Shown here: positions 7,639 to 20,649 of the stretch, one piece after another | Numbering within the stretch: position 1 is the stretch's first letter | Layout: every line of letters starts with the position of its first letter | Assembly: GCA_023954745.1 (NCBI GenBank) | Contig: JAGSHC010000039.1 | Location: forward strand, 1-35,337 | From: Deltaproteobacteria bacterium | GTDB lineage: Bacteria > Myxococcota_A > UBA796 > UBA9615 | DNA length: 35,337 nucleotides | Reading direction: 5' to 3' | Notes under the pieces: generated by a model | Databases searched by the model: none | What the model was told of the DNA's origin: nothing | The model's input: only the letters and a program-made list of their open reading frames with translations | Made by a program: the position numbers and the translations under genes

Positions 7639-8676
7639 ATGGAACTCGTCGATGAACTCCGAGCACACTACCCGGATCCGGGAAGTGACCCCTTCTTCCT
7701 CCTCGTGGCCCGACTCGAGCGGGCCCAGGCCGCGCTGCTCACCCATCCCCTCTACCAGCGTGTGAACAATCTCCCCGCGCTCCGCGTGTTCATGCGCAGC
7801 CACATCTTCGCAGTCTGGGACTTCATGACCCTGGCGAAGTCGCTGCAGGCCCACCTCACCTGCCTCGACCGCCCTTGGCTGCCGCCACGCGACATCGTCT
7901 CTGCGCGACTCATCAACGATATCGTGCTTGGCGAGGAGACGGACGAGGTCCGCCCCGGAGTCTTCACCAGCCACTACGACCTCTACCTGCAGTCGATGAT
8001 GGACATCGGTGCGGATGTCGCTCCCATGAAGGCGTTCGAGGCCTCGCTCCGGGCAGGAATCGCGCCGGTCCAGGGGTTGGCTTCCATCGACGTGCCGGAG
8101 CCCACCAAGGACTTCGTCGTCCACACGCTGCGGACTGCGGAGCAGGAGGTGCATGAGGTGGCGGCGGCGTTCTTGATGGGCCGTGAGGACATCATCCCCC
8201 GCATGTTCCAGTCGATCCTCGACAGTCTCGACCGCAGCGAGGACTTCGGCGTGCGCTTCGTCACGGGAATCGAGCGGGCCGAACGGCGGCTCCCTGAAGC
8301 CCTGCGCGGCCGAGTCCACGGGCGCTTCCGTGAGGCGATGCGGCGGGTTCAGAACACCACGGGGATCAAAGACCCGCGCGGCAACCTTCGGCTCTATCTG
8401 GAGCGCCACATCGAGCTGGACGGCGAGCACCACGGACCCATGGGTGAGAGGCTGCTTCGCGTGTTGTGCGGCAACGACGACGAGAAGTGGGAGGAGGCCT
8501 TCGTGGCGGCGCAGAGCGCCCTGGAGGTGCGGGTGGCCCTGTGGGACGGCGTCCTGCTCGAGATCTCGGGCGAGGGCCCTGGCAAAGGCCGCAACTTGCG
8601 TCCCGGGAAGGGGCGCCTCCGGTCGCGGCTCGGTTCAGCGCGGCCGAATTCCGAAGCCGACGGTCGCGGTCACTGA
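7639..8676 (+). CDS. DUF3050 family protein (haem-oxygenase-like fold)
   Basis: 345 residues. MRSHIFAVWDFMTLAKSLQ (around His55), RLINDIVLGEETDE (90-103) and SHYDLYLQSM (111-120) are hallmark segments of DUF3050. The RHIELDGEHHGPMG segment (His257, Asp261, His265) completes a His/Glu/Asp set. The set is suggestive of a diiron site, as in other helical haem-oxygenase-like oxidases. Enzymatic activity is not known for the family, so oxidase chemistry is inference. The last about 35 residues are basic, low in complexity and beyond the usual family end. They overlap the convergent gene by 42 bp, so the tail may be an extension through loss of an earlier stop. ATG 7639 is the only sensible start and appears leaderless. 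Confidence 0.85.
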   Translation: MELVDELRAHYPDPGSDPFFLLVARLERAQAALLTHPLYQRVNNLPALRVFMRSHIFAVWDFMTLAKSLQAHLTCLDRPWLPPRDIVSARLINDIVLGEETDEVRPGVFTSHYDLYLQSMMDIGADVAPMKAFEASLRAGIAPVQGLASIDVPEPTKDFVVHTLRTAEQEVHEVAAAFLMGREDIIPRMFQSILDSLDRSEDFGVRFVTGIERAERRLPEALRGRVHGRFREAMRRVQNTTGIKDPRGNLRLYLERHIELDGEHHGPMGERLLRVLCGNDDEKWEEAFVAAQSALEVRVALWDGVLLEISGEGPGKGRNLRPGKGRLRSRLGSARPNSEADGRGH

Positions 8677-10074
8677 CGCCTGGATTCCGTCGATCCAGCC
8701 AAAGGACGCTCCCACTCCGATGCGCAGCGGGGCCCGCGGAATCGGCGAGATGATGGCCCCAAACCGGGCGAGCCCACCGACGGCCACGGCGGTTGAGGTG
8801 ACTCCAGCCGTGGAGGTCGCCTGCTTCGCGACGAAGCCTACCTGCGCACCCGCGTACGGCTTCAGCGTGACGCCGGCGAAGGCCCACTGCAGACCCGCGC
8901 CCCAGGTGGGGACGATGCTGAGCGTGTCTGGGGCGAAGCTGCCCAGTCCGACGCGGGCGAAGACGGTGGCCTCGAGCACGCGCACGATGCCGACGTCCAC
9001 CTCCAGGGTGGGGGCGGCGTAGGTGAACGGCTTGCGGAAGGGAGCCTCGCGTACGAGCACCCCCGCGCCGAGGCGAATTCCCAGGCGGTCACCGACCGGG
9101 ATGAGGGGCCGCGTCGGCTTCTCGATTCCCAGCTCGGGCGTCCAACGCAGTACCCCGCGTCGACTGGCGATGTAGAGAGTGGGCACGCTCCAGGCGCCGG
9201 CACCGAGGGCGAGTAGCGAGGAGGCGGCTTCGCTGGCGGGCCCTTCGAGGGCGCCGTCCCGCACCGCCTCGGCGGCGGCCCTCGGATCGGCCCAGAGTGA
9301 GGGACCCGGCGGGAGATCGAGGCCCACGGCGCGAATGGCCCCCGAGGCAGTCTCGACGTGGATGACGTGGGTTCCTGCCTTGAGCTCGACCACCATGGCT
9401 CCGGGCTCGGCCGCCTCGGAACCGTCGAGCCAGACCCGCCGTGAGTCGGTGGGCGGCACGACCGAGAGCACCACGGGCTCCGCAGTCAGGGCCTGCTCCT
9501 TGCCGAGCAAGAAGAGCTGTTGGGCAGTGGGATCGTAGCTCTCGTTCCACCGGACGTCGGGCTTCAGGGCGGCGGCGCGAGCGAACTGGTCGATCGCATC
9601 CTCCCGCTCCTGGTCGTATGCGGCCATCAGCCCCGAGAAGAAGAAGAGGTCATGCAGCTGCCTGGCGGGGATCGCCGCGACGGAGCAGGGGAGGTCGGCG
9701 CGCAGTGCATTGAAGGCCTCGCTGGCCGCTCCGAGGTCCAGCTCATCGACCAGGCGGACCGCATCCCCGAGACGAGCCTGGAAGCCCGTCGCATCGAGCG
9801 CGGGTCCCTTGCAGGTGAACAGCTCGACACCCAGGGAGGTGAGGGCGCTGTATCCGGTCTCGGCCACGAGGTCGTCGAGGCCTCGGGTCATCTCCGGCCC
9901 GATCTCGACGCCCGTGAGAAGCTGAACCTTGCCTCGTGCGGATTCCGCCGCGCTTTCGTCCGTCGCGTCGGAGACGATCAGGACTGCGTCGTCGGCGGAG
10001 GCAGCGCCGGAGTGAGCAATGCTGAGCACCAGCGTGGCTAGAATGGGCACATGCCTGATCAGGGATCGACTCAA
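8635..10074 (-). CDS. Exported protein with PEGA-like domain and C-terminal beta-barrel-like region
   Basis: 479 residues from a TTG at 10074, supported by AGGAG 9 nt upstream and a coherent signal peptide (SLIRHVPILATLVLSIAHSG, cleavage after ASA). Residues about 90-190 look helical and TPR-like (DLFFFSGLMAAYDQEREDAIDQFARAAAL). Residues about 205-245 form a PEGA-type sandwich (RRVWLDGSEAAEPGAMVVEL, then GTHVIHVE). From about 320 onward alternating hydrophobic strands suggest an outer-membrane or surface barrel. This combination is common in myxobacterial envelope proteins of unknown role. The first 24 bp overlap the start of the divergent FG-GAP gene, so the two promoters lie inside each other's coding regions. 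The 3' end overlaps the DUF3050 gene by 42 bp. Confidence 0.72.
   Translation of the reverse strand: MSRSLIRHVPILATLVLSIAHSGAASADDAVLIVSDATDESAAESARGKVQLLTGVEIGPEMTRGLDDLVAETGYSALTSLGVELFTCKGPALDATGFQARLGDAVRLVDELDLGAASEAFNALRADLPCSVAAIPARQLHDLFFFSGLMAAYDQEREDAIDQFARAAALKPDVRWNESYDPTAQQLFLLGKEQALTAEPVVLSVVPPTDSRRVWLDGSEAAEPGAMVVELKAGTHVIHVETASGAIRAVGLDLPPGPSLWADPRAAAEAVRDGALEGPASEAASSLLALGAGAWSVPTLYIASRRGVLRWTPELGIEKPTRPLIPVGDRLGIRLGAGVLVREAPFRKPFTYAAPTLEVDVGIVRVLEATVFARVGLGSFAPDTLSIVPTWGAGLQWAFAGVTLKPYAGAQVGFVAKQATSTAGVTSTAVAVGGLARFGAIISPIPRAPLRIGVGASFGWIDGIQASVTATVGFGIRPR
10039..10044 (+). promoter_or_regulatory. -10-like hexamer for a leaderless start
   Basis: TAGAAT ends 6 nt before ATG 10051, placing the transcription start on the A of the ATG. 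There is no Shine-Dalgarno and no clear -35. The element lies inside the coding region of the divergent gene. Confidence 0.5.
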
Positions 10075-13000
10075 CGTCTGCTGCTCCTGTTGGCCACCAC
10101 TGCTCTCCCCCTCCTGGTGTCCTTACCGCAACCCGTCCATGCCCTGACCCCCGGTGAGAGGTCGCTCGCGTCCGCGCCGCGTCTCATCCTCGGGGGAGAG
10201 CCCGAGGAGGGGTTTGGCAAGGTGCTCGCGAGTCCCGGGGACATCACTGGGGATGGCCTCGGAGACCTGCTCGTAGGGGCGCCCTCCGCGAGGGAGGGCG
10301 CGGGACGAGTCTACCTCTTCTCGGGGGCCGACATTCTCAGTGGCGCAGCGCTCCGGGCGGAGGACGCCTGGGCGACGGTCGAAGGAGGCGTGGGCTGGGG
10401 TTACGGGTCTGAAGTCGAAGTCCTGGGGGACGTGGACGGCGACGGCTGGCCCGATTGGGGAGTCGGAGCTCCCGGGTTCCCCGGAGGAGACGCGCCCACT
10501 GGACGCTTGTGGGTGATCTCGGGGCGTCGGACCGTCGCGGACGTGCCCGTGGGCGAGTTGCTGTCCAGTGATGCCCTGGTTGCGTTCGACGGCCCGACCG
10601 AGAGCGCGCTTCTGGGAGAGGGGTTCGCCGCGGCCGGGGACGTCAACAACGACGGGCTCGGCGACTTCGCGCTCGTGCATCGAGACCCCGACACCAGCGC
10701 AGACTCTGGCTTGCTGCACGTGGTCCTGGGCCGAGCGCGCGGAAACTGGCCGCCGGCGCCGTCGCTCGCCGACGTCAGTGGCTGGAGCTATCTCGTCGAC
10801 GGTCTGGGCGACCCGGGGCTGGGCTTCACCTTGCAGGACACCATCGTGGCGGCGGGCGACCGGGACAATGACGGGGTCGGCGACCTCTTCTTCGGCATGC
10901 CCGGCTACACGTCGGCGGCGGCGGGATCGAGCGCGCGGACTGGTGCCTTGGCGCTGTTGCTCGGCCTCGCACCGGGCGAGCAAGGCGCGGCGGAAGCGGA
11001 GGCGGCGTTGTTCCTCGTGGCCGACACCACCCTTCTTGGCACCAACAGCGTCATCGACGCCCACTTCGGGCAGCCCCTCGCGGTGGCGGACACCGTGGGT
11101 GGTCAGGTCCTGTGGGTGGGCGCCGAGGGGCCGGATCGTGGGCGCTCCTTGGGGCTCGCCATCAGTGGAATCCAGCTCGGCACGGACGACCCCACCGTGC
11201 TCGTCGCGGGGACTGGCGTGCTCGGCGGCCTGGCTGTCTCTCGGGCGGATCTGGACGGGGACGGAACCCCGTCCCTGGTGGCGGCGTCACCACGTCTCGG
11301 TGAGGCGCCGGGAACTCCTGGTTCGGGCCGGGTGGCCGTGCTCCGCGCAGACGTCTCGGGCGTCGTCGAGATCTCCGACAGCTTCGCGGGCTTTGCCGGT
11401 GGGGACGAGTTCGCGGCCGGGAGCGCTCTCGCCGCGGCAAATGTGGACGCCGACGACTACGACGATGTCTTCGTGGGCGCGCCCGGGGCCTTCGGCGTGG
11501 GGGCGGTCTTCGTCTTGGTGGGGGCGGAGATGGCCGACGGCGATGGGGTCTCACCGGCGGGGGGCGACTGCGACGACGCGGTGGCGACCGTCTTCCCCGG
11601 AGCGCTCGAGATCGGGGACTGCGCTGACAACCTCGACAACGACTGCAATGGCCTCATTGACGAGGCGGATGAGCCTTGTGGGCTCGAGGGGTCGGGGATC
11701 GTGGTGGGGTGCTCGGCGGCTGGAGGCTCCGGTGGGAGCTGGCTCCTCGCCCTGCTCGTCTTCGGCCTGCGCCCCCGGGCTCGCAGGAAGGCGAGCGCGC
11801 CGCGGGCCGCGCGGGTCGGGGTGTTGCTCGTTGCCGGGCTCGGCTTGCTCGCAGGTTGCGTGGCGGGGCCGCTTCCCGAGGGAGTTGCGCCCGCGATTCG
11901 GATCGTGAGCCCCATCGATGAGGACCGCCTCCCAGAGACGTCGATTCTTCCGGTCGTGGTCGAGGTGGATGGAGTGCGACTCGCGGCGGAGTCAGCGGGG
12001 GAAGAGCCCGTTGAGCCGGGGGCCGAGGACCCACAGCTGTTGCCGAAGGCGCTGTGGGCCTTGTCGGTCGACGGGCTGTACCGGTCGACAGATGGGGGAG
12101 TGGTTCAGGTGGCTGAGGGCCTGGTGCCTGGGATTCACATCGTGAAGGCCGAGCTTCGGGACACGGCGGATCAGCCCTTCGTCCCCGAGGTCTCGGCGGA
12201 GATCTCGGTAGAGATCATCGCTGGCCAGCCCCTTCTCGCTCTCACCAACCCCATCGCTGACGCGGTGCTGCCTCCCGCGGGCTTCGAGGTGCGCTACGAG
12301 GTCGGGGGATTTCTGCTCAATACCGCGTCCATCGGTTCGCCCAACCAGCTCGGAGTGGGTCACGCCGTGGTGCGCGTCGACGATGTCACCGTCGCCACAG
12401 ATGGTGATGGGCGGGCGTTCCTCACTGGTGTCGCGGCTGGTGAGCACACGCTGATGGTGGAGCTGGTGAACAACGACGGCTCGTCGCTCTCCCCGGAGGT
12501 CTCCGAGTCCGTCGAGGTGACCGTGGCGGAGCCGGTGCTCACCGTGACCCAGCCGCTGCCGGACGAGGTGCTCGAGGGGCCGGACATCGTCATCGAGTAC
12601 GAAGTGAGCAACTTCACCCTCGACCCCATCAACGTGAACGGGACTCCTGAGGCGGGACGCGGGCACACCCACGTGTATCTGGATGGGCTCTACCAGGGGC
12701 TGAATGCGACCGGCACGTTCCCGGTTCCCGCGGTGACCGGCTGCGATCACACCCTGCGCCTCGAGCTGGCAGAGGCGGGCCACGCCGAGCTGGGAATCGG
12801 GGTCGAGGTCGGCTTCGAGGTGCATCCGTGTGTGAGCGTGGAGGGCCTCACCGGCGGGGATACGGTCGTGGGGCCACAGGTCACGATTCCCTTCGTGACG
12901 CCCGGCTTCGCGCTGGATGGGACGACCCCCGAGAACGGTGGTCTGTACGTGACGCAGTACCTCGACGGCGTCTACGTCGGCTTCACGACGCAGCCCGGAA

Positions 13001-13140
13001 ACGCGACGTACACCGGGGTCGCCGCCGGAGCGCACGTCTTCGAGCTGCGCCTCGCCGAGGGCCCCGTGGCGCCTGGCAGCGAGCAGGATGGCGAGCGGTC
13101 ACCGGCGGTGGTGAGCATGATCTCGCTGACGGTGCAGTAG
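10051..13140 (+). CDS. FG-GAP propeller protein with internal MYXO-CTERM-like tail fused to a four-repeat lipoprotein-like half
   Basis: 1029 residues in one open frame. A signal peptide (LLLLLATTALPLLVSLPQPVHA) is followed by seven FG-GAP-type blades, one degenerate, with DxDxDG calcium loops (GDVDGDGWPDWGVGAP, GDVNNDGLGDF, GDRDNDGVGDLFFG), a full integrin-like beta-propeller to about residue 490. Residues 496-543 are a MopE-type motif (DGDG, GGDCDD, FPGALE, DNDCNGLIDE). Residues 553-580 look like a MYXO-CTERM sorting tail: Cys554, a Gly-rich spacer, a hydrophobic helix 564-573 and a basic cluster ending RARRK. Only 10 residues later a second hydrophobic stretch ends in a perfect lipobox, Leu600-Ala-Gly-Cys603. 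The rest (615-1029) is four tandem beta-sandwich repeats built around H/Y-V-x-x-DG-x-Y (for example GHTHVYLDGLYQG). It reads like two adjacent genes joined in frame. No stop occurs in any forward frame near the junction. Confidence 0.85.
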   Translation: MPDQGSTQRLLLLLATTALPLLVSLPQPVHALTPGERSLASAPRLILGGEPEEGFGKVLASPGDITGDGLGDLLVGAPSAREGAGRVYLFSGADILSGAALRAEDAWATVEGGVGWGYGSEVEVLGDVDGDGWPDWGVGAPGFPGGDAPTGRLWVISGRRTVADVPVGELLSSDALVAFDGPTESALLGEGFAAAGDVNNDGLGDFALVHRDPDTSADSGLLHVVLGRARGNWPPAPSLADVSGWSYLVDGLGDPGLGFTLQDTIVAAGDRDNDGVGDLFFGMPGYTSAAAGSSARTGALALLLGLAPGEQGAAEAEAALFLVADTTLLGTNSVIDAHFGQPLAVADTVGGQVLWVGAEGPDRGRSLGLAISGIQLGTDDPTVLVAGTGVLGGLAVSRADLDGDGTPSLVAASPRLGEAPGTPGSGRVAVLRADVSGVVEISDSFAGFAGGDEFAAGSALAAANVDADDYDDVFVGAPGAFGVGAVFVLVGAEMADGDGVSPAGGDCDDAVATVFPGALEIGDCADNLDNDCNGLIDEADEPCGLEGSGIVVGCSAAGGSGGSWLLALLVFGLRPRARRKASAPRAARVGVLLVAGLGLLAGCVAGPLPEGVAPAIRIVSPIDEDRLPETSILPVVVEVDGVRLAAESAGEEPVEPGAEDPQLLPKALWALSVDGLYRSTDGGVVQVAEGLVPGIHIVKAELRDTADQPFVPEVSAEISVEIIAGQPLLALTNPIADAVLPPAGFEVRYEVGGFLLNTASIGSPNQLGVGHAVVRVDDVTVATDGDGRAFLTGVAAGEHTLMVELVNNDGSSLSPEVSESVEVTVAEPVLTVTQPLPDEVLEGPDIVIEYEVSNFTLDPINVNGTPEAGRGHTHVYLDGLYQGLNATGTFPVPAVTGCDHTLRLELAEAGHAELGIGVEVGFEVHPCVSVEGLTGGDTVVGPQVTIPFVTPGFALDGTTPENGGLYVTQYLDGVYVGFTTQPGNATYTGVAAGAHVFELRLAEGPVAPGSEQDGERSPAVVSMISLTVQ

Positions 13141-13234: not shown

Positions 13235-13310
13235 TGGTGGGCGGGACAGGGCTCGAACCTGCGACCCGCAGCTTGTAAGGCTGCTGCTCTACCAACTGAG
13301 CTACCCGCCC
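13235..13310 (-). tRNA. tRNA-Val (UAC anticodon)
   Basis: Full cloverleaf with acceptor GGGCGGG/CCCGCCC, anticodon loop CTTACAA (TAC), T-loop TTCGAGC and encoded CCA. A TACCAT hexamer at 13336-13331 is a plausible -10, with only a weak -35 (CTGCGA) 17 bp further upstream. Confidence 0.96.
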
Positions 13311-13768: not shown

Positions 13769-13845
13769 GGGGTGGTAGTTCAGTTGGTTAGAATGCCGGC
13801 CTGTCACGCCGGAGGTCGCGGGTTCGAGTCCCGTCCATCCCGCCA
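13769..13845 (+). tRNA. tRNA-Asp (GUC anticodon)
   Basis: Cloverleaf with acceptor GGGGTGG/CCATCCC (one G-U pair), anticodon loop CCTGTCACG (GTC), T-loop TTCGAGT, discriminator G and encoded CCA. The body is nearly identical to E. coli tRNA-Asp. Confidence 0.97.
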
Positions 13846-19939: not shown

Positions 19940-20025
19940 TGGTGCGAGAAGAGGGACTCGAACCCTCACGGGCAATGCCCACTGGAACCTAAATCCAGCG
20001 CGTCTACCAGTTCCGCCATCCTCGC
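19940..20025 (-). tRNA. tRNA-Leu (UAG anticodon)
   Basis: 86-nt class II tRNA with acceptor GCGAGGA/TTCTCGC, anticodon loop TTTAGGT (TAG), a variable arm (TGGGCATTGCCCGT) and encoded CCA. It is the last of six tRNAs, 44 bp before tig. Confidence 0.97.
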
Positions 20026-20091
20026 TAGCACGACGTCAAATACACGAAACGCCGACAAAACGAGGTCTTGCCGGCGTGTCGAGTGAAGGAA

Positions 20092-20167
20092 TGGTGAGCC
20101 CACCAGGAATCGAACCTGGAACCGACGGATTAAGAGTCCGTTGCTCTGCCAGTTGAGCTATGGGCCC
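20092..20167 (-). tRNA. tRNA-Lys (CUU anticodon)
   Basis: Acceptor GGGCCCA/TGGGCTC, anticodon loop CTCTTAA (CTT), T-loop TTCGATT and encoded CCA. Confidence 0.97.
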
Positions 20168-20197
20168 ATGCCTAATTTCAAAAAGATCAGTCGCCGT

Positions 20198-20274
20198 TGG
20201 TACACCCGGCAGGATTCGAACCTGCGACCCACGGGTTCGAAGCCCGGTACTCTATCCAGCTGAGCTACGGGTGC
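20198..20274 (-). tRNA. tRNA-Arg (UCG anticodon)
   Basis: Acceptor GCACCCG/CGGGTGT, anticodon loop CTTCGAA (TCG; the A34 form ACG is not seen here), T-loop TTCGAAT and encoded CCA. Confidence 0.96.
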
Positions 20275-20348
20275 GCGGCGGTCGCGGAAGCTACCAGACC
20301 GTCTTGGACTGTCAAGACGCTGATTGCGACCGCTTTTTACGGTGAAAA

Positions 20349-20425
20349 TGGGGTGGATGATGGGGATTGAACCCACGACAACCGGGATCACAACCCGGTG
20401 CTCTGCCGACTGAGCTACACCCACC
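20349..20425 (-). tRNA. tRNA-His (GUG anticodon)
   Basis: Acceptor GTGGGTG/CATCCAC with an encoded extra G at position -1 opposite discriminator C, the identity element of histidine tRNA. Anticodon loop TTGTGAT (GTG), encoded CCA. Confidence 0.97.
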
Positions 20426-20461
20426 GCAAACTTTTAAAAGATCCTGTCGCCTCGAGCTCCC

Positions 20462-20538
20462 TGGTACGCCAGGCAGGGCTCGAACCTGCGACCTGCGGTT
20501 TAGAAGACCGCTGCTCTATCCAGCTGAGCTACTGGCGC
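20462..20538 (-). tRNA. tRNA-Arg (UCU anticodon)
   Basis: Acceptor GCGCCAG/CTGGCGT, anticodon loop CTTCTAA (TCT), T-loop TTCGAGC and encoded CCA. It reads AGA/AGG codons. Confidence 0.97.
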
Positions 20539-20572
20539 TTCCAGAGCTCCCGTTCTGAGGACACAACCGCGA

Positions 20573-20649
<77 letters not shown>

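Follow-up and report, generated by a model that had tools for sequence, protein, structure and literature searches.

A single open reading frame in the window, the 35,337-nucleotide stretch of deltaproteobacterial DNA analysed here, probably encodes a secreted polyprotein. Myxosortase would cut the chain after Cys554 and signal peptidase II would cut it before Cys603; the two products would be a propeller protein at the surface and a lipoprotein with Ig-like domains. The topology, the lipidation, both cuts and the partnership of the products are what we infer. A preliminary description of this DNA had suggested a natural polyprotein. This suggestion is well supported with regard to the structure of the gene and the conservation of its design: the fused frame is found in three genomes of two genera, the second half occurs elsewhere as an apparent stand-alone lipoprotein, and the join recurs in other proteins. 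That the chain is processed we strongly infer.

Layout of the probable polyprotein gene

The open reading frame of 1029 amino acids, located at 10051..13140 on the plus strand, was delineated by frame reading, Pfam and a structural model, and has orthologues at loci L002 and L003. The order of its parts is a signal peptide, an FG-GAP propeller, a MopE-type motif, a MYXO-CTERM-like tail, a lipobox and about four Ig-like domains, all on the same strand. The N-terminal export signal (aa 1-31, 10051..10143) was read by eye and ends in PVHA at a presumed cleavage site. It is followed by an FG-GAP beta-propeller region whose outer limits are estimated (about aa 33-490, 10147..11520; Pfam PF01839, E 1.2e-19, four stretches) and by a putative metal-binding motif of the MopE type (aa 506-538, 11566..11664; Pfam PF11617, E 4e-07).

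The MYXO-CTERM-like tail comprises aa 553-580 (11707..11790) and reads GC-SAAGGSGGS-WLLALLVFGL-RPRARRK. In this layout Cys554 (11710-11712) is followed by a Gly-rich spacer, helix 1 (aa 564-573) and an Arg-rich end, the basic turn RPRARRK (aa 574-580). A further 449 residues are in frame past the tail, which therefore is not at the C terminus. The internal lipoprotein signal (11770..11856) consists of the same, shared basic turn together with ASAPRAAR, helix 2 (aa 589-602) and the lipobox LLAG before Cys603. As the lipobox cysteine is residue 603 of the protein, this signal is not N-terminal. The predicted mature lipoprotein (aa 603-1029, 11857..13137) would have Cys603 as its first residue, with 426 more residues to the end of the protein; its model consists of Ig-like beta-sandwich domains in series, of which about four were counted by eye. 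The full-length AlphaFold model of the protein has a mean pLDDT of 49.3 and is too poor to reveal a hairpin.

The 1029-residue frame, Cys554, the RARRK cluster (576-580) and LLAGC with Cys603 all lie where the preliminary description had placed them. Its statement that no forward frame has a stop between about 11780 and 11900 is also correct, and the stop-free span is in fact 11673-11905, the nearest forward-frame stops being at 11670 and 11906. The resemblance of residues 553-580 to a sorting tail holds as well, in that the layout of cysteine, spacer, helix and arginines is present and is kept in the orthologues of two other genomes, G001 and G004. The match to TIGR03901 is borderline: residues 553-579 score 15.3 bits in the whole protein, 20.0 in a junction fragment and 18.1 in a genome search, with a cut-off of 20. 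The match is nevertheless not regarded as fortuitous, since the tail recurs in both orthologues together with a lipobox-like end and both cysteines are invariant. The lipoboxes of the window protein and of the G001 protein fit a PROSITE-like pattern, and the G004 lipobox, LPAC, fails this strict pattern.

Orthologues, the second half and competing readings

A whole-protein search of 58 genomes detected two full-length relatives, one in G001, which is of the same genus as the window genome G000 (53% identity), and one in G004, which belongs to another genus of the family (45%). Orthologues had been proposed as a check for a stop near codon 580. Both relatives are single, stop-free frames with the same junction, ACSNGGSRAPTLFSALLLGLLIARRRRWWGLALATAAVGLAGC in G001 and GCGIAGGSAGLGALLLLLLLARHRPWLLLLVLPAC in G004. 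Cys554 and Cys603 are invariant across the three orthologues and the helices between them vary, as expected of signals. From the MYXO-CTERM-like cysteine to the predicted Lgt site there are 33-49 residues in this family. The proposal that the basic cluster serves both signals agrees with the orthologues, where only one such cluster is present between the helices (ARRRRWW in G001 and ARHRPW in G004). A contig scan with A1 found at least 66 relatives, and none among the matches listed extends past query residue 551.

A profile of the second halves was searched over 377 genomes of the phylum. Matches are found in 21 genomes, and full-length ones only in the same three (the window genome, G001 and G004). 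The other matches lie on 26 contigs, all of which were read, and one of them, L409, is cut off by the contig end. In 25 of the 25 non-fused homologues that could be judged, a lipobox-like motif is located just before the repeats, at the N terminus and preceded by a possible start codon. The weakest lipoboxes among them are those of L317 (LPFGC) and L316 (LPAC); two others, L410 (SLAC) and L411 (SLGC), were missed by the search expression for the lipobox and were recognised by eye. Because all 25 judged homologues have the appearance of stand-alone lipoproteins, the second half looks like a lipoprotein gene captured behind a MYXO-CTERM protein. Alignment A5 was set to begin at the lipobox cysteine, and possession of both cysteines was the criterion for selecting the rows of A6; the invariant cysteine columns in these alignments are therefore not taken as evidence. 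A model of the second half built with 17 sequences has a mean pLDDT of 90.2 and displays serial beta-sandwiches. The best Foldseek matches of this half are tandem Ig and cadherin chains; E-values are small, but the TM-scores normalised by query length reach only 0.17-0.32 among the 50 matches listed. Pfam gives only a sub-threshold match to DUF4399.

Were the chain to remain uncut, the propeller and the Ig-like half would stay joined and a hairpin of two helices would keep them in the inner membrane, with the two cysteines as relics. This is unlikely. The strict lipobox has been lost in G004 and the MYXO-CTERM score is weak, both of which would suit an uncut chain; invariant cysteines between variable helices would not, and neither would the lipoprotein-like appearance of the non-fused homologues. 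The same pair of signals also aligns in 14 hairpins of varied proteins, although these hairpins were chosen for having both.

Less probable still is a single cut, for example one by signal peptidase II that frees the lipoprotein and leaves the first half tethered, or the reverse. In its favour, the window lipobox fits the PROSITE-like pattern while the MYXO-CTERM match is borderline. Against it, both orthologues preserve every element of the first signal (cysteine, Gly-rich spacer, helix, basic turn), and the window genome does have a protease of the myxosortase family. This protease, L135, scores 104.2 bits with NF040914 (Mrt_core; cut-off 100) and is below the cut-offs of the named types MrtP, MrtX and MrtC (MrtP, 147 of 250). 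For signal peptidase II (PF01252) there are three matches in G000 and two in G001, and none was found in the G004 assembly, which is 79% complete.

Separate synthesis of the lipoprotein from an internal start codon, with the long frame incidental, is highly improbable. The window has in-frame GTG and TTG codons at aa 591-592, yet both fall within helix 2, so that a product started there would lack a basic n-region. There is no start codon in G001 from the beginning of helix 1 (TTG at aa 557) to the lipobox; near the G004 junction the only ones are TTG and GTG, both inside helix 2. In G001 and G004 the stretch from the basic turn to helix 2 is free of start codons, and the first frame is without a stop of its own in all three genomes. 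As neither G001 nor G004 offers a usable start, this reading was rejected. An assembly error or frameshift that joins two genes, or a very recent stop loss as entertained in the preliminary description, might be suspected in a genome of 481 contigs with no forward-frame stop across 11673-11905, but is scarcely credible and was rejected, as the orthologues at 45-53% identity, which come from two other assemblies, are all fused in the same frame with the same junction and the design is also present in genomes of one contig (G076 and G190) or two contigs (G338).

Recurrence of the fusion in the class and the phylum

Run-on tails were surveyed with TIGR03901 in two genomes, and the run-on rates given here come solely from these surveys. 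In the window genome 110 of 120 matches were examined, the ten left out being two on the window contig and eight elsewhere. There are 67 tails of 20 bits or more, of which 63 stop within 30 codons and four run on. A second hydrophobic stretch is present in 4/4 run-on tails compared with 7/63 of the in-frame sequences past the stop of terminal tails, by a hydrophobicity cut that was set after the fused cases had been seen. Below 20 bits there are four more convincing fusions (C119, C117, C12 and C111), and five run-on matches that are false by appearance (C47, C472, C269, C98 and C397).

The second sample, G006, is from the same order and was chosen with the knowledge that two fusions are present in it. 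It has 47 MYXO-CTERM tails: 40 end, and seven run on. A lipobox follows in six of the seven and an AxA-type signal in the other. With three terminal tails dropped at contig ends, the lipobox pattern is found in 6/7 run-on tails vs none of the 37 usable terminal tails (Fisher p 1e-6). The corresponding values for the window genome are 1/4 and 4/63, which is not significant (p 0.27), and those for the two genomes pooled are 7/11 and 4/100 (p 2.8e-6). By the hydrophobicity cut, 4/7 run-on and 2/37 terminal tails of G006 are positive.

A hairpin profile was run over 71 searched genomes of the class and followed by direct reading. Together with the eight fusions of the window genome survey, this gives at least 34 fused open reading frames in 18 genomes, the window gene and its two orthologues included. 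The profile contained the second signal and the matches are only those listed, so the fused frames selected with it represent occurrence and not a rate. A simple rule assigns the second signal to the signal-peptidase-I type in 22 of the 34 frames and to the lipobox type in eight, with four unclear. In 18/34 the stretch that links the basic turn to helix 2 contains no start codon.

Homologous second halves are common to several fused frames across genomes, as found by blastp of the second halves only. Two lipobox sets with related second halves are G001_C459 with G006_C103 and G039_C84 with G048_C58. A large set comprises L261 and L276 and, by blastp, L268, L274, L278, L257 and L271. The two members tested, L261 and L276, have an OmpA domain and a resemblance to TraB (NF033763, E 9e-57 and 1e-39) that is in both cases far below the model cut-off. 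Located behind MYXO-CTERM proteins, this set displays a single-chain, TraA/TraB-like arrangement. Another locus, L266 (G006:C125), has in one frame a glycoside hydrolase family 15 match, a MYXO-CTERM tail, a lipobox and an alpha-amylase domain, that is, two starch-type enzymes in one precursor.

The 14 lipobox-type hairpins were made into profile A6, which was run over the 377 genomes of the phylum and, at E 1e-6, missed the orthologue in G004. Twenty new loci without a stop were read. The design is present in 19 of them, and the other, L398, is non-coding by appearance. All but one of the 19 are outside the class, in 16 genomes, and three are those in the genomes of one or two contigs referred to above. 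In its first half the G190 protein matches FG-GAP and, below threshold, MopE, and in this it is like the window protein. One fused protein is common to seven genomes outside the class (G076, G089, G120, G132, G248, G285 and G289) and is homologous on both sides of the junction; it is the only one for which both halves were compared.

At two loci, L280 (G027:C14) and L405 (G270:C79), a MYXO-CTERM tail ends in a stop and is followed a few codons later by a lipoprotein start at an ATG of the same frame. These loci possibly represent the state before fusion.

The gene divergent from the polyprotein gene (8635..10074, minus strand) encodes a predicted exported protein, and is found divergently upstream in G001 (61%) and G004 (47%) too. 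Members of its family also occur as second halves in two other fusions of the window genome, G000:C243 (L158, L293) and G000:C12 (L225, L295), with 27-29% identity by blastp, hinting that this family is a regular partner of MYXO-CTERM surface proteins. The TTG start listed for this neighbour overlaps the start of the polyprotein frame by 24 bases (10051-10074); a GTG eight codons in, located by eye, is a possible true start. Genes for tRNA-Val (13235-13310, minus strand) and tRNA-Asp (13769-13845, plus strand) closely follow the polyprotein gene, and a cluster of six tRNA genes is found further on (19940-20649, minus strand).

Proposed processing and related systems

In the published model, as given in the available text of its source, a MYXO-CTERM protein is exported and held by its helix, its Arg end being cytoplasmic, its cysteine is presumably lipidated, and myxosortase cuts just beyond this cysteine (PMC11980579). 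Applied to the window polyprotein, the N-terminal signal would start export of the propeller half, and helix 1 of the MYXO-CTERM-like tail would stop transfer. The short basic turn would stay cytoplasmic and helix 2 would cross back, such that the second half would be exported as well. The hairpin would thereby put Cys554 and Cys603 at the outer face of the inner membrane. Once Cys554 is lipidated as in the model, myxosortase would cut just after it, and Lgt and signal peptidase II would lipidate Cys603 and cut before it. Processing would leave an FG-GAP protein anchored at the surface and a lipoprotein with Ig-like domains, and the hairpin between them, some 48 residues long, would be discarded. 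The fusion would yield both partners in equal amounts and in the same place.

A chain that runs past the Arg end must recross the membrane if the remainder is to be exported, and a second signal directly after it would achieve this. As the second signal recrosses and the Arg turn suits an n-region, MYXO-CTERM and lipoprotein signals appear compatible back to back, and for this reason the loss of a stop between two adjacent genes could be harmless.

A polyprotein cut at an internal signal sequence is known from FbcH of the bacterial cytochrome bc1. FbcH differs from the window protein in the use of signal peptidase I, and in a polytopic first half, and is not known to have a sorting tag or a lipobox.

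MXAN_5598 of Myxococcus xanthus has MYXO-CTERM in the middle of the reading frame; the authors suggest a fusion of two genes, call it atypical, and put forward processing and surface anchoring for its N-terminal part (PMC11980579). The protein is found in a vesicle proteome as an OmpA domain protein (PMC4158809). The window frame likewise has an internal MYXO-CTERM followed by a second part with predicted export. However, the second half of MXAN_5598 is an outer-membrane barrel with an OmpA domain, whereas that of the window protein is Ig-like, and no lipobox or second signal is named for MXAN_5598 in the available text of the source (PMC11980579). Second halves of the OmpA type are found in some of the fusions described here, a likeness at the level of domains.

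The traA and traB genes of M. xanthus overlap by four bases, and there too an exported partner from the same pathway comes immediately after a MYXO-CTERM surface protein, albeit as two genes and not, as in the window, as a single frame (PMC3325183, available text). An archaeosortase substrate with a tripartite signal that is not at the C terminus is known from a title cited in PMC11980579. As far as the title tells, it is alike in that a C-terminal-type sorting signal works inside a protein, and different in that enzyme and signal are archaeal.

The window gene is the lipobox version of a fusion type with one described example, MXAN_5598. Internal MYXO-CTERM is thus already on record (PMC11980579); as judged from the literature available, the lipobox partner and its spread seem to be new. 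A literature search with subscription papers largely outside its reach found no paper on the lipobox version or its spread.

With somewhat less assurance than the reading of the window gene itself, the cases on balance appear to form a class that extends throughout the presumed Myxococcota, in which a sorting tag and an export signal share a basic turn in one cleavable hairpin. The genomes are assigned to this phylum on the strength of their MYXO-CTERM and myxosortase content. Surface proteins and their lipoprotein or outer-membrane partners would be made one-to-one and released by two distinct membrane proteases, myxosortase and a signal peptidase. Automatic annotation probably calls such genes single odd proteins, and surface proteomes may consequently be miscounted.

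Lgt is regarded by the authors of the MYXO-CTERM model as the leading candidate for lipidation of the MYXO-CTERM cysteine (PMC11980579, available text). The window family bears on this question, as both cysteine sites are in one molecule. If both cuts occur, the fusion would represent a bacterial polyprotein strategy for the delivery of pairs of surface proteins, and two lipid-anchoring pathways would be linked in one substrate.
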